Shown: positions 48,295 through 52,685 of the stretch, one piece after another | Layout: each line of letters begins with the position of its first letter | Position numbering within the stretch: the first letter of the stretch is position 1 | Source of the DNA: Spirochaetota bacterium | Lineage (GTDB): Bacteria; Spirochaetota; UBA12135; COTS27; JAFLEE01 | Assembly (NCBI GenBank): GCA_017302015.1 | Contig: JAFLEE010000015.1 | Location: 1 to 64,000 of the forward strand | Length of the DNA: 64,000 nucleotides | Reading direction: 5' to 3' | The notes under the pieces: model-generated | Databases searched by the model: none | Seen by the model: the letters and a program-made list of their open reading frames with translations, nothing else | What the model was told of the DNA's origin: nothing | Made by a program: the position numbers and the translations under genes

Positions 48295-49239
48295 ATTCGC
48301 ATCCGCCACCGTCCCCCGTTTTTTTTCATCCTTTTCCTGACGGCGACCCAACTGAGCGGCGCGACTCAAGGCGCTTCTGCTCCCCTCCCCGCCTCCCAGG
48401 CGGCGGCCCCATGGGTCACCGAGGAGATCCGAGCGACCCGGGTCGAATACCGCATCTTCCCGAGCGTGGCGGCCAAATCACCGGTCAGTTACCATATCTA
48501 CCTCCCCGACATCTATCACAAAGAAACGCTGCGCCGCTTCCCGGTCTTGTATTGGCTCCACGGCACCGGCGGCGGCCTCCCCGGCATCGCAAAACTCGCG
48601 GCCTTCTTCGATGACGCGATCCGCGCGGGCAAGACGCCCGCCATGCTCGTCGTCTTCGCCAATGGACTCGCGACCAGCCTGTGGTGCGATTCCAAGGACG
48701 GTTCGGTGCCGATGGAGTCCGTAGTGGTGGAAGAACTCGTTCCCCACGTCGACGCGACCACCCGCACCCGCGCCGATCGCGGAGGACGGCTGATCGAAGG
48801 CTTCAGCATGGGCGGCTACGGTGCGGCGCGCCTGGGGCTCAAATACCCCGGCGTGTTCGGCGCTATCTCGATCCTCGCCGGAGGACCGCTGGATCCGGAG
48901 TTCAGGGGCCCGAAGGCGCTTTCCGATCCCGCGCTCCGCGAGCGCATCCTACGGACCGTTTTCAGCGGCGATCTCGAGGCCTTCAAGGCCCAGAGCCCGT
49001 GGGTCTTGGCGGCGCGTTACGGCGCCACCGCCCACGGCAGAACGCCGATACGGATTGCGATCGGATCCCTCGACTTCACCCTCGGCGACAACCGGAATTT
49101 TTCCGGGCGCCTCGACGCCTTGAGCATCCCCCACACTTTTTCCGTCGTCCCGGACGTGGGCCATGACTCCCTATCGCTTATGCGGGGGCTCGGGGAATCC
49201 AATTGGGCCTTCTACCGCGAAGTTTTCGGGTTCCAATAA
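48295..49239 (+). CDS. exported esterase D-like hydrolase with apparent ATT start
   Basis: The frame encodes an alpha/beta hydrolase of the esterase D (PF00756) type, with the oxyanion strand LYWLHGTGGG, the nucleophile S171 in GFSMGG, and a candidate catalytic His in the segment VPDVGHDSL. Upstream of the first common start (GTG, 48466) the same frame continues cleanly as RIRHRPPFFFILFLT, a good signal peptide, then a coding-like stretch. No ATG, GTG or TTG exists in frame between the stop at 48211-48213 and 48466, but AGAAGG lies six bases before an ATT at 48295. The protein would be 314 residues and periplasmic, perhaps removing acyl groups from glycans. An alternative is an ATG at 48224 joined by one missing T in the T8 run near 48319-48328. 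Confidence 0.75.
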   Translation: MRIRHRPPFFFILFLTATQLSGATQGASAPLPASQAAAPWVTEEIRATRVEYRIFPSVAAKSPVSYHIYLPDIYHKETLRRFPVLYWLHGTGGGLPGIAKLAAFFDDAIRAGKTPAMLVVFANGLATSLWCDSKDGSVPMESVVVEELVPHVDATTRTRADRGGRLIEGFSMGGYGAARLGLKYPGVFGAISILAGGPLDPEFRGPKALSDPALRERILRTVFSGDLEAFKAQSPWVLAARYGATAHGRTPIRIAIGSLDFTLGDNRNFSGRLDALSIPHTFSVVPDVGHDSLSLMRGLGESNWAFYREVFGFQ

Positions 49240-49562
49240 CCAAGAGCCCGAGGGCGCCGAAGGCCACGCGCTTTCCTGATGAAGGGCGCTTGTTCGGGGG
49301 ATCCCCAACGATTCGACCAAACTTTCCCCGCCCACAAGATTTTTTTCCGGGATTTCTAAGGAGGCTCCACGTCGGATGACTGGACGAGCTCCGGAGTTCT
49401 TGGCGAATCGCTTCCGCGCCGGAACGCCCATGCGCCGCCGCGAAAACCGTATCGGATGGAATCCATTCGCACATCGAAGGTTCTAAGTCGGTTTAATTCA
49501 TCCGCCAAAGAAAAGAGATTCCCCGGCGACCCGATGGTTTGCCAAATCCTCCCCCCCCTATA

Positions 49563-49721
49563 GAAATGCGTAAGCGTTTCACGTCGGGGTCGACGCAGGT
49601 GCCCGTGATCCCGCGCGGGGGAATCGGTCCGCGGAGGAGCGCCTAAGCGCCACCGCAAAACCGCATCGGCCAAAACCAGCAGGCGCTTCGAGCGCTCCGG
49701 AGCGGATCGATTCCCCTGCGC
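49563..49721 (+). ncRNA. predicted structured RNA element, unit 1
   Basis: Hairpin A: GAAATGC (49563-49569) and GCGTTTC (49574-49580) close on GTAA, a GNRA tetraloop, with one U-G pair. Hairpin B: 20-base arms at 49613-49632 and 49702-49721 pair fully with two G-U pairs. Inside lie a GGA/GGA loop, GGAGCGC (49636-49642) with GCGCTCC (49692-49698), and AAGCGCC (49645-49651) with GGCGCTT (49682-49688), topped by a 30-base apical region. The wobble pairs and the GNRA loop only make sense for plus-strand RNA. Whether it is transcribed is unknown. Confidence 0.55.
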
Positions 49722-49774
49722 AGGAGAAGGGATTCCCCGGCGACCCGATGGTTTAACAAATCCTCCCCCCCATA

Positions 49775-49933
49775 GAAATGCGTAAGCGTTTCACGTCGGG
49801 GTCAACGCGGGTGCCCGTGATCCCGCGCGGGTGAAACGATCCGCGGAGGAGCGCCTAAGCGCCACCGCAAAACCGCATCGGCATAAACCCGCAGGCGCTT
49901 CGAGCGCTCCGGAGCGGATCGATTCACCCGCGC
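49775..49933 (+). ncRNA. predicted structured RNA element, unit 2
   Basis: The same fold as unit 1: GNRA hairpin at 49775-49792 and long hairpin with arms 49825-49844 and 49914-49933. Compared with unit 1, arm position 8 changes from G-C to U-A on both sides, position 5 from G-U to G-C and position 15 from G-U to A-U, while position 12 becomes an A-A mismatch. Substitutions that keep pairing are evidence that the stem is selected. Confidence 0.55.
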
Positions 49934-49994
49934 TGGAGAAGGGATTCCCCGGCGATCCGATGGTTTGTAAAAATCCTGACAACAGAGCGGAGCG

Positions 49995-52685
49995 TTACCT
50001 CGCGCACCTCGCCACAAGATCGAAGATCGACCGATAGGGCACCCCCGCGTGGCGGGTGAGCCCGATCTCGCAGCCGCGGCTGGAAGAGACGCCGTGGCCG
50101 CAATCCGCCGGGAGTTGCTCCTTCAAGAAGCGCAGCGCGCTGCGGTTGAGTTCGGGGCGCAGGAAGCCGCGGTCGCCGGCGAAGGCGCAACAATCGGTAT
50201 CCACCGGGAAGATCGGCTTGGCGCACAAACGGGCGGCGACCCGTTGCCAGGCGGGTTCGAGGCCCATCTTGCGGTCGCTGCACGGGATGTGGAAGGCGAT
50301 GGGTTCCTCGAGGGGCGCCAGGGTCAAGCGGGGAAGCAGGATGCGCTCGAGGAAGGCGATGGGCGCGGTCTCCTTGGGGAAATGCAGCGCGCAGGGGCTG
50401 GTGTCGATGAGGAGCGGCAGGCGGCCGTCTTCCGTGGCCTCGCGGATGGCCTCGACGAGTTCGCGGTGCTTCGCTTCGCCCTCGGCGGGGAAGCCCTTGC
50501 TCTCGAAGGCCTTGCCGCAACATAGGTTGGGCAGGTTCTTGGGCAGGACGGCCTCGAGCCCGGCGCGCTCGAAGAGGTCGAGGACCGCCTCGGGGGTGGA
50601 GACGGCCTTGTCGCCGGAACCGGCCCCGAGGGTGCGCGCCATGCAACTGGGGAAATACACCGCGCGGTCCCCGTGGGGCCTCGGCTTGGGGACGCGCGCC
50701 GCCTTGGGGAGCCCGGGCGCCAAGGCGGTGCCGAGCCTCGCCACCGTCGCCACGGCGGCGAAATTGCCCGCGATGCTCGCGGCGACCCGGCGCCCCAAGC
50801 CCGACCATTCGGTCTGGCGAAGGGCGACGGTGAGTTTGCCGGTGTCGATGCCCACCGGGCAGGCCAGGGCACACAGGCCGTCGGCCGCGCAGGTATCGAT
50901 TCCCTGGTAGACGTAGGCGCGGGCCAGCTCCTTGAATCGGGCGGCTTCCGCGGGGATTTCCTGGAGGCGCGCGACTTCGCGCACCGAGGCGATGCGCTGG
51001 CGCGGGGTGAGGGTGAGGTGGCGGGAGGGGCAACGGGGCTCGCAGAAACCGCACTCGATGCAGGCGTCCACCAGTTCGTGGGCCGCGGGCATGGGCTTAA
51101 GGTTCTTGAGGTGCGCCTCGGGGTCGTCGCTGAGGATGACCCCGGGATTGAGGATGCCCCGTGGATCGATGAGCGCCTTGAGGCGGCCCATGATGCCGTA
51201 GAGGTCTTCGCCCCATTCCCGGGCCACGAAGGGGGCCATATTGCGGCCCGTGCCGTGCTCGGCCTTGAGGGAGCCGTCCAGGCGCAGGACGAGGGCCGCC
51301 ACGTCCTCCATGAAGGCGGCGTAGCGCGCCACTTCCGAGGGCCCGCCGAAGGATTGGGAGAAGACGAAGTGGATATTCCCCGCGAGGGCGTGGCCGAAGA
51401 TCACGCCATCGGGATAGCCGTGGCGCGCCATGAGTTCCTGGACGCGCGCGATGCCCTCGGCGAGTCGCTCGATGGGGAAGGCGACGTCTTCGATGATCAC
51501 CGTCGTGCCCGTGGGGCGCTTCGCCCCCACGGCCGGGAAGACGCCCTTGCGGATCTTCCAGAACGCCTCGTATTCGGCGGGGACGCGGGTAAAGGCGGGG
51601 GGCGCCAGGAGCGACGGTCCCCCCAGGAGGCCGGCGAGTTCGGCGATTTGCGAGGTGAGGAGTTCCTCGGAGGGGGCCCGCGTCTCCACCAGGAGGGCCG
51701 CGGCGGCCTCCGGGAGGCCCTCGATCATGGCGGGGATCCCCGGCTTTCCCTCCACCGACCTCAGGGCGGGCCGGTCCAGGAGTTCCGCCGCGGAGACGCT
51801 GCGCCCCTGGAGGCGCACCACGGCCTCGCAGACCGCCGCCATGTCGCGGAAGAGGAGCAGCGCGCTGGCCTTGTGGGGATGCTCCGCCACCGTGCGGTAG
51901 GTGATCGAGGAGAGGAAGGCCAGCGTGCCCTCGCTGCCGATCAGGAGGTGGGCCAGCGCGTCCACCGGATCGTCGAAATCCAGGAGCGCGTTGAGGCCGT
52001 AGCCGGTGGTGTTCTTGATCCGGTATTTGTTCCGCAGGCGCTCGGCGAGGGCCGGGGCGCGGACTTCGTCCATGAGGGCCCGAAGCCCCGACAGCAGGGC
52101 CCCGTGCCCGGCGGCCCATACGCGGCGGGAGGATTCGTCCCCGGTATCGAGGACGCTCCCGTCGGTGAACACCGCGCGGAGCGAGCGCAGCGTGTGGTAG
52201 GAGTTCTCGACGATCCCGCAGCACATCCCGCTGGCGTTATTGGCCGCGATCCCCCCGATCATGGCCGCGTCGATGGAAGCGGGGTCGGGCCCGATCTTCT
52301 TTCCGTAGGGGGCGAGGAACCGATTGGCCTGGGAGCCGGTCAGCCCCGGATCGAGGCGGATCCAGGATCCGTCCGGCGCGACCTCGGCGCGGCGCCAGGC
52401 CGTACCCAGGGTCACGAGCACCGAATCGGTGATGGCCTGGCCCGAGAGGCTCGTGCCGGCGGCGCGGAAGGTAACGGGCACCCGCAAGGAATCAGCGAGG
52501 GTCACGAGGAAAGAGAGTTCCGCCTCATCCTTCACCGCCACGACGATCTTGGGGGTGAGCCGGTAGAAGCCCGCGTCGGTCCCCTTGGCGAAGGTGGTGA
52601 GCGCGTCGGTGGCTACCCGGTCTTTCGGGATTTTTTTCAGCAGGCGGCGGTGGAAACTCGACCAGGGTTCGGGTAGTTTGGGCAT
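49995..52685 (-). CDS. fused FAD / Fe-S D-lactate-type dehydrogenase
   Basis: This 896-residue protein fuses a PCMH-type FAD-binding domain (about residues 39-270, with AAGTSLSGQ and NNASGMCCG), an FAD-linked oxidase C-terminal domain (about 280-515), two 4Fe-4S segments (CIECGFCEPRCP near 541 and CAADGLCALACP near 595) and a C-terminal cysteine-rich (CCG) region with LCCGKAF and CCAFAG. This is the single-chain form of D-lactate or D-2-hydroxyacid dehydrogenases that pass electrons to the membrane. The second cluster has a wider spacing, usual in this family. It probably oxidises D-lactate, glycolate or D-2-hydroxyglutarate. Its stop lies 18 bp from the repeat array. Confidence 0.93.
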   Translation of the reverse strand: MPKLPEPWSSFHRRLLKKIPKDRVATDALTTFAKGTDAGFYRLTPKIVVAVKDEAELSFLVTLADSLRVPVTFRAAGTSLSGQAITDSVLVTLGTAWRRAEVAPDGSWIRLDPGLTGSQANRFLAPYGKKIGPDPASIDAAMIGGIAANNASGMCCGIVENSYHTLRSLRAVFTDGSVLDTGDESSRRVWAAGHGALLSGLRALMDEVRAPALAERLRNKYRIKNTTGYGLNALLDFDDPVDALAHLLIGSEGTLAFLSSITYRTVAEHPHKASALLLFRDMAAVCEAVVRLQGRSVSAAELLDRPALRSVEGKPGIPAMIEGLPEAAAALLVETRAPSEELLTSQIAELAGLLGGPSLLAPPAFTRVPAEYEAFWKIRKGVFPAVGAKRPTGTTVIIEDVAFPIERLAEGIARVQELMARHGYPDGVIFGHALAGNIHFVFSQSFGGPSEVARYAAFMEDVAALVLRLDGSLKAEHGTGRNMAPFVAREWGEDLYGIMGRLKALIDPRGILNPGVILSDDPEAHLKNLKPMPAAHELVDACIECGFCEPRCPSRHLTLTPRQRIASVREVARLQEIPAEAARFKELARAYVYQGIDTCAADGLCALACPVGIDTGKLTVALRQTEWSGLGRRVAASIAGNFAAVATVARLGTALAPGLPKAARVPKPRPHGDRAVYFPSCMARTLGAGSGDKAVSTPEAVLDLFERAGLEAVLPKNLPNLCCGKAFESKGFPAEGEAKHRELVEAIREATEDGRLPLLIDTSPCALHFPKETAPIAFLERILLPRLTLAPLEEPIAFHIPCSDRKMGLEPAWQRVAARLCAKPIFPVDTDCCAFAGDRGFLRPELNRSALRFLKEQLPADCGHGVSSSRGCEIGLTRHAGVPYRSIFDLVARCAR

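Follow-up and report, generated by a model that had tools for sequence, protein, structure and literature searches.

What is the tandem repeat that lies between two genes in the window, the 64,000-nt stretch of Spirochaetota DNA analysed here, and from what was it derived? A first-pass annotation had described a 212-bp tandem repeat with two full units, and this description held. Tandem Repeats Finder placed an array at 49513-49966 with a period of 212 and 92% matches; its two full copies, at 49553-49754 and 49765-49966, share 94% identity across 202 nt. At this period, the full tandem units span 49553-49764 and 49765-49976, and each contains a 192-nt core on the plus strand (49563-49754 in unit 1 and 49775-49966 in unit 2) that starts with a GUAA hairpin and ends with GGTTT. 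C tracts were found before unit 1 (49551-49558, also seen in the family alignment) and unit 2 (49765-49771), and most family copies are preceded by a pyrimidine-rich tract in that alignment. The array opens with an old, degenerate partial unit on the same strand (49402-49550), which shows 70% identity to unit positions 66-212. Two listed ORFs flank it: on the left a plus-strand, esterase-like ORF (48466-49239; name from the first-pass annotation), convergent with the array, and on the right a minus-strand ORF of 896 amino acids (49995-52685), named FAD-binding-oxidase-like from its sequence, whose 3′ end abuts the gene-proximal unit 2.

Both cores were recovered by a covariance model of the family, unit 1 at 165.7 bits (E 7.4e-37) with 44 of 45 pairs and unit 2 at 161.1 bits (E 9.7e-36) with 43 of 45. 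Fold prediction for unit 1 located the GUAA hairpin of the earlier description at 49563-49580. It is followed by a closing stem (helix 1, 49582-49599 with 49735-49750), a long stem of 19 bp (helix 2, 49614-49632 with 49702-49720), inner stem A (helix 3, 49636-49642 with 49692-49698) and inner stem B (helix 4, 49645-49651 with 49682-49688), which encloses an apical loop (49652-49681) with a conserved CGCA motif in near-invariant alignment columns. The long stem of unit 2 pairs 49826-49844 with 49914-49932. Folding of the plus strand scores far lower in both units than folding of shuffled sequence (z -6.2 and -7.1), and folding of the minus strand is less strong (z -3.9 and -4.1). The three arm changes previously reported between the units are all real, with a numbering one position off. 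G-C at 49620/49714 becomes T-A at 49832/49926, a true two-sided change; G-T to G-C at 49617/49717 and G-T to A-T at 49627/49707 are one-sided. Two differences were absent from the earlier account: a U-A pair broken to A.A (49624 to 49836) and a G-C pair turned into G-U (49744 to 49956). Covariation from two window copies alone is thin evidence, and it is the family of copies that settles the matter of compensatory change.

When the window unit was used as a blastn query of the same genome (5.43 Mb, 165 contigs), more than 12 further copies were retrieved, and a second query taken from one of these retrieved more. The covariance model, built from 25 copies, gave 62 matches in the genome, which after removal of opposite-strand echoes correspond to approximately 38 units at approximately 29 loci. 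No unit was found in 392 other genomes of the phylum under strict filters or in 40 relatives searched by blastn, and BLAST searches of plasmids and phages gave no match. Exact-pattern loci in GTDB r220 (64) and IMG/VR (3) were rejected as chance matches, as the family profile found no homologue among them. By these searches, the family is genome-specific, and the evidence on the units comes from this one genome.

Besides the window (C57), arrays are present on C82, C117, C119 and C140, with periods of approximately 245 bp in L055 (C82:36391-37562), 188 bp in L053 (C117:35131-35977), 171 bp in L018 (C119:17500-17890) and 179 bp in L017 (C140:17546-18110). In these four arrays, every copy except the last is cut in the 3′ arm, which is expected from tandem duplication running from the leader to mid-stem. 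The idea that only the gene-proximal array unit stays intact as a sign of function was dropped, since the duplication geometry alone gives this pattern. Two copies, L044 (C81:22820-22971) and L046 (C96:19784-19880), lack their 5′ part, and gene-end sequence is joined straight to the remaining 3′ part. The left flanks of L038 and L031 have approximately 39 nt in common (CATCCCCATTTCCACTCCA...) with GTCATCC motifs, which suggests another small dispersed repeat in the genome. The left flank of L032 (C158) holds a 12-bp repeat run encoding FLPS/KEGR repeats, near two adjacent single-strand-binding-protein-like genes.

Units range from 182 to 195 nt, and the model structure comprises 45 pairs, with 14 in the closing stem, 19 in the long stem and 5 and 7 in the two inner stems; the 5′ hairpin stands ahead of the closing stem. 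Across the 25 copies, standard pairs fill 96.9% of pair cells, against 42-48% when partners are slid by 1-3 columns. Two-sided changes were counted in 29 of the 45 pairs, a count that ignores shared ancestry; they affect 9 of the 14 pairs of helix 1 and 15 of the 19 of helix 2. The covariation score was 0.369, compared with 0.057-0.075 for slid and 0.122 for shuffled alignments, and none of 500 shuffles was as good as the real alignment. The conserved fold with compensatory changes, first suggested by the two window units, is thus borne out by further copies that covary above both backgrounds. Four held-out copies, L200, L202, L203 and L017 (C44, C134, C133 and C140), kept 44, 43, 42 and 44 of the 45 pairs; their arms, for example CGCGCCCGGGGGTATATCCC / GGGATATATCCCCGGGCGCG, have little in common with those of other copies. 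A 3x3 internal loop of the form GNA/GRA and the apical CGCA motif are also kept across copies. Rfam 15, group I and II introns included, gave no gathering match in the window, and at E<=5 the only matches were to miRNAs and sRNAs, far below cut-off and due to chance, in agreement with the earlier statement that the repeat matches no known RNA class.

The first-pass annotation had further held that the wobble pairs and the GNRA loop fit plus-strand RNA only. The choice of strand stood. Among the non-Watson-Crick cells of 19 intact units read on the plus strand, G-U outnumbers A-C by 34 to 8, cells that are not independent, one G-U pair being common to 17 of the 25 training copies. In most copies the plus strand also has lower folding z-scores than the minus strand, although the latter folds well too. 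The wobble bias identifies the plus strand as the folded strand and favours selection on it; by itself, it fits RNA and single-stranded DNA alike. The part of the claim that concerned the loop stood only partially. GUAA is present in the window, and nearly all copies have a GNNA or GNA loop (GUAA, GCAA, GGGA, GAA, GCA, GCCA, GACA or GCUA; a few array units differ), but in DNA the loops d(cGNAg) and d(cGNNAg) have unusual stability, so the loop alone is no proof of RNA.

The origin of the units became visible in their flanks. In approximately ten copies, the start of a transposase can be read on the minus strand to the left of the unit (MPANFVSVDCDTQLLLPPDLRPWLPADPIAHF in C6, NLVSVDNDSLLLFPTDFRQWLSAEPM in C158, and others). 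The longest remnant, in C158, matched NCBIfam NF033551 (IS1182) at E 2.5e-6, a fragment-only match below the curated cut-off, and Pfam DUF772 at E 1.7e-4; shorter fragments occur in other copies. The right side of the copies ends in CCCGACGGGCTCCTAG, which, read towards the transposase, is CTAG|GAGCCCGTCGGGCT, the same kind of start as CTAG|CAGYCTGTCGGACTT and CTAG|CAGTCTGTCGGACTT in IS1182 relatives in the phylum. The unit of IS-linked copies lies between the left inverted repeat and the decayed start of an IS1182 transposase. The left end is approximately 290 nt from the ATG here and approximately 65-95 nt in the phylum's IS1182 relatives, which lack the structured unit, so that the unit represents an insert of approximately 195 nt in the IS leader. 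The literature searched contained no described IS1182 element with a structured leader. The earlier view that the repeat belongs to no mobile element is not supported: the family is linked to an IS1182-family IS by the NF033551 and DUF772 matches and by an IS1182-type left end at CTAG. For copies without a recognisable IS end, those of the window included, fold, position and orientation are the only ties to the IS; where IS-linked copies have the IS1182 left end, the window has a stretch (49967-49994) that is at best a degenerate version and in which no IS end was recognisable by pattern. At the right ends of L052, L055 and L200, a different motif, GCGCTAR, stands in place of GGGCTCCTAG; a second IS subgroup may possibly have carried the unit as well.

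In this assembly, 93% complete, the carrier IS is dead. No copy retains more than approximately 110 residues of the transposase, no C-terminal part was found in the assembly, and the genome holds no intact transposase. No right inverted repeat was found beside the copies, and no second inverted repeat scored above shuffles, save in one doubtful case. Membership of the carrier in IS1182 accordingly stands on the transposase and the left terminal inverted repeat of relics, with neither right repeat nor intact transposase found. Two copies at contig starts, C23 (L135) and C33 (L131), were considered as an intact IS and rejected: read together, the two contig ends overlap across a G/C run to give a further relic, apparently a single locus with an assembly break inside it. 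The first-pass annotation had named a MITE with the arms as terminal inverted repeats as an outcome that would refute its reading. A classical MITE was rejected, as the arms are internal rather than terminal, each copy has one IS end and a second inverted repeat was not found.

Most units lie against the 3′ end of a gene. In approximately 14 of the 17 copies with a recognisable end, the abutting minus-strand ORF stops in frame at the TAG of the IS end, and copies without such an end show similar spacing to the neighbour's stop (in the window, approximately 30 nt to the stop at 49995). Three or four exceptions (L037, L039, L200 and perhaps L041) have no abutting minus-strand gene end. The flanking genes were called as ORFs, and Pfam domains support those examined, ten in number. 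Among the flanking genes are an HflX-like GTPase, a YgiQ-like radical SAM protein, TerC, an AraC regulator, ATP synthase epsilon, a LacI regulator, EamA and a helicase, and one neighbour is the 3′ end of a tRNA-Arg. In L033 (C142), the gene for the YgiQ-like radical SAM protein ends inside DUF3362 (73 of 151 positions), exactly at the IS end, indicating that some genes were trimmed by the insertion. The left gene of a unit may lie on either strand, so a plus-strand RNA would be no simple mRNA tail in approximately ten copies. IS1272 and TnSha1, both of the IS1182 family, insert into hairpins, several of which are confirmed terminators (PMC5678879; PMC4923244), and such targeting would explain the position of the units at gene ends.

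The unit was compared with the IS sequence that adjoins it in seven IS-linked copies. Mean identity was 84% in the unit with 1.3% gapped positions, compared with 63% and 24.5% in the adjoining transposase remnant and 73.5% and 15.2% in the IS end. The difference between unit and remnant implies that the unit was kept after the transposon had lost its function, and speaks against both neutral relics and a role confined to control of the transposase in cis. That the shape is strictly conserved though the jumping gene has decayed points to a function nobody has described.

We tentatively favour, at somewhat short of an even chance, an IS1182 leader module that encodes a folded antisense-type RNA and was kept by the host after the death of the transposon. 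The 192-nt element would have been delivered as an extra left-leader module of an IS1182-family IS, after the left inverted repeat and ahead of the transposase start codon, and the carrier would have landed at CTAG sites, mostly gene 3′ ends, before its transposase died in all copies recovered. The conserved fold is that of the plus strand, which is antisense both to the transposase and to the abutting gene; the most likely reading, we infer, is that this strand is made as RNA. In ISPpu9, Asr9 is an unusually stable antisense RNA to the folded 5′-UTR of tnp (PMC8450116), and the first role of the unit may likewise have been that of a stable antisense-type leader RNA controlling the transposase. 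Both systems have a structured region upstream of the transposase and an antisense strand able to form a stable RNA; they differ in that ISPpu9 belongs to an unrelated family (IS110), in that the module here outlives its transposase and in that it is known from sequence alone. Since all transposases are dead, an antisense role cannot be the present one. Today, the unit would probably serve the host as a rigid boundary structure between transcription units, blocking read-through or exonucleases. Several observations stand against this explanation: sigma-70-like promoters are enriched at the units on neither strand, no promoter or terminator signal backs one particular model of transcription, the exceptions named above lie off gene ends, and the loops and the GNA/GNA internal loop suit DNA too.

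A second reading, which we regard as possible but doubtful, is that the unit is a new structured-RNA class, possibly catalytic or protein-binding, that travelled as a passenger in the IS1182 leader, outlived the transposon and is used by the host at approximately 29 gene boundaries. Structured intergenic repeats are a known kind of element, of which one survey describes 92 families (Cozzuto et al., 2008; PMC2267715). The present family resembles those families, REP/BIME, ERIC and YPAL in being dispersed, intergenic, near gene ends, stably folded and genome-restricted. It differs from such stem-loop families in its fixed-length 192-nt, four-helix fold, in arm sequences that have been replaced wholesale with pairing kept, and in an IS-leader origin that is still visible. 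REP/BIME are palindromes of 20-40 nt with a GTAG or CGTC tag, mobilised by RAYTs; the unit is 192 nt long and has a different fold.

We consider it rather unlikely that the unit acts at the level of DNA, folding as single-stranded DNA or a cruciform used in structure-dependent IS1182-type transposition, with the copies as hitchhiking or trans-mobilised DNA hairpins. The C(GNNA)G and C(GNA)G loops and the conserved GNA/GNA internal loop match motifs that are unusually stable in DNA, and arrays of units exist. Recognition of DNA hairpins is established for IS1272 and TnSha1, and a short sequence of the left end can be duplicated in tandem by IS1272 (PMC5678879; PMC4923244). The carrier shares with these elements the transposase N-terminus, a CTAG plus AGYCYGTCGG-type left end and insertion at gene 3′ ends. 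IS1272 targets hairpins without sequence preference, unlike the carrier, which also differs from the IS1182 family in the approximately 195 additional structured nucleotides that separate its left end from the transposase, in that all its copies are dead and in that its right end was not found. Against a DNA-level role, the strand bias of G-U over A-C is unexpected of a cruciform, the far side lacks a second inverted repeat, and IS1182 relatives manage without the unit.

Unlikely, in our judgement, is a 3′-UTR element of the abutting gene, a minus-strand RNA hairpin that would terminate transcription or protect the mRNA 3′ end in place of a terminator lost on IS insertion. Most units do follow immediately on the stop codon of a minus-strand gene, tandem gene contexts show this orientation over the other by approximately 10 to 2, and the minus strand is itself well folded. 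The wobble pairs, however, favour the opposite strand, IS1182 targeting of gene ends alone accounts for the position, and the window array lacks a terminator-like site with a T run: no GC stem followed by a T run was found on either strand within 49150-50150.

An improbable alternative is a ribozyme or other self-contained RNA that rides in the IS and, like the group I introns of IStrons, renders insertions harmless. The unit is a discrete module of nearly fixed length with an elaborate fold and near-invariant loop nucleotides, it was inserted into the IS leader and it belongs to no known RNA family; like the IStrons (an IS plus a group I intron), it joins an insertion sequence to a structured nucleic-acid module. 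Against this, Rfam gave no group I or group II intron match, no evidence of splicing was seen, the flanking genes show no sign of needing it and no cleavage site was identified. Very improbable are neutral relics whose paired changes arose by template switching that corrects imperfect palindromes rather than by selection: quasi-palindrome correction can give paired changes in any long inverted repeat, but the mismatched GNA/GNA internal loops and apical motifs were kept in nearly all copies and not corrected, unit length stayed constant beside heavily gapped relic DNA, and the wobble pairs are strand-biased.

To our knowledge, few of the intergenic stem-loop repeats of bacteria have a known origin. 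In the present family, an IS1182 leader can still be recognised as the source, and the fold has outlived the transposon, which makes the transition from transposon part to host element testable. The covariation is strong enough to define a new family of structured nucleic acids with a ready covariance model, and the family adds a case linking IS1182 elements to hairpins at gene 3′ ends.
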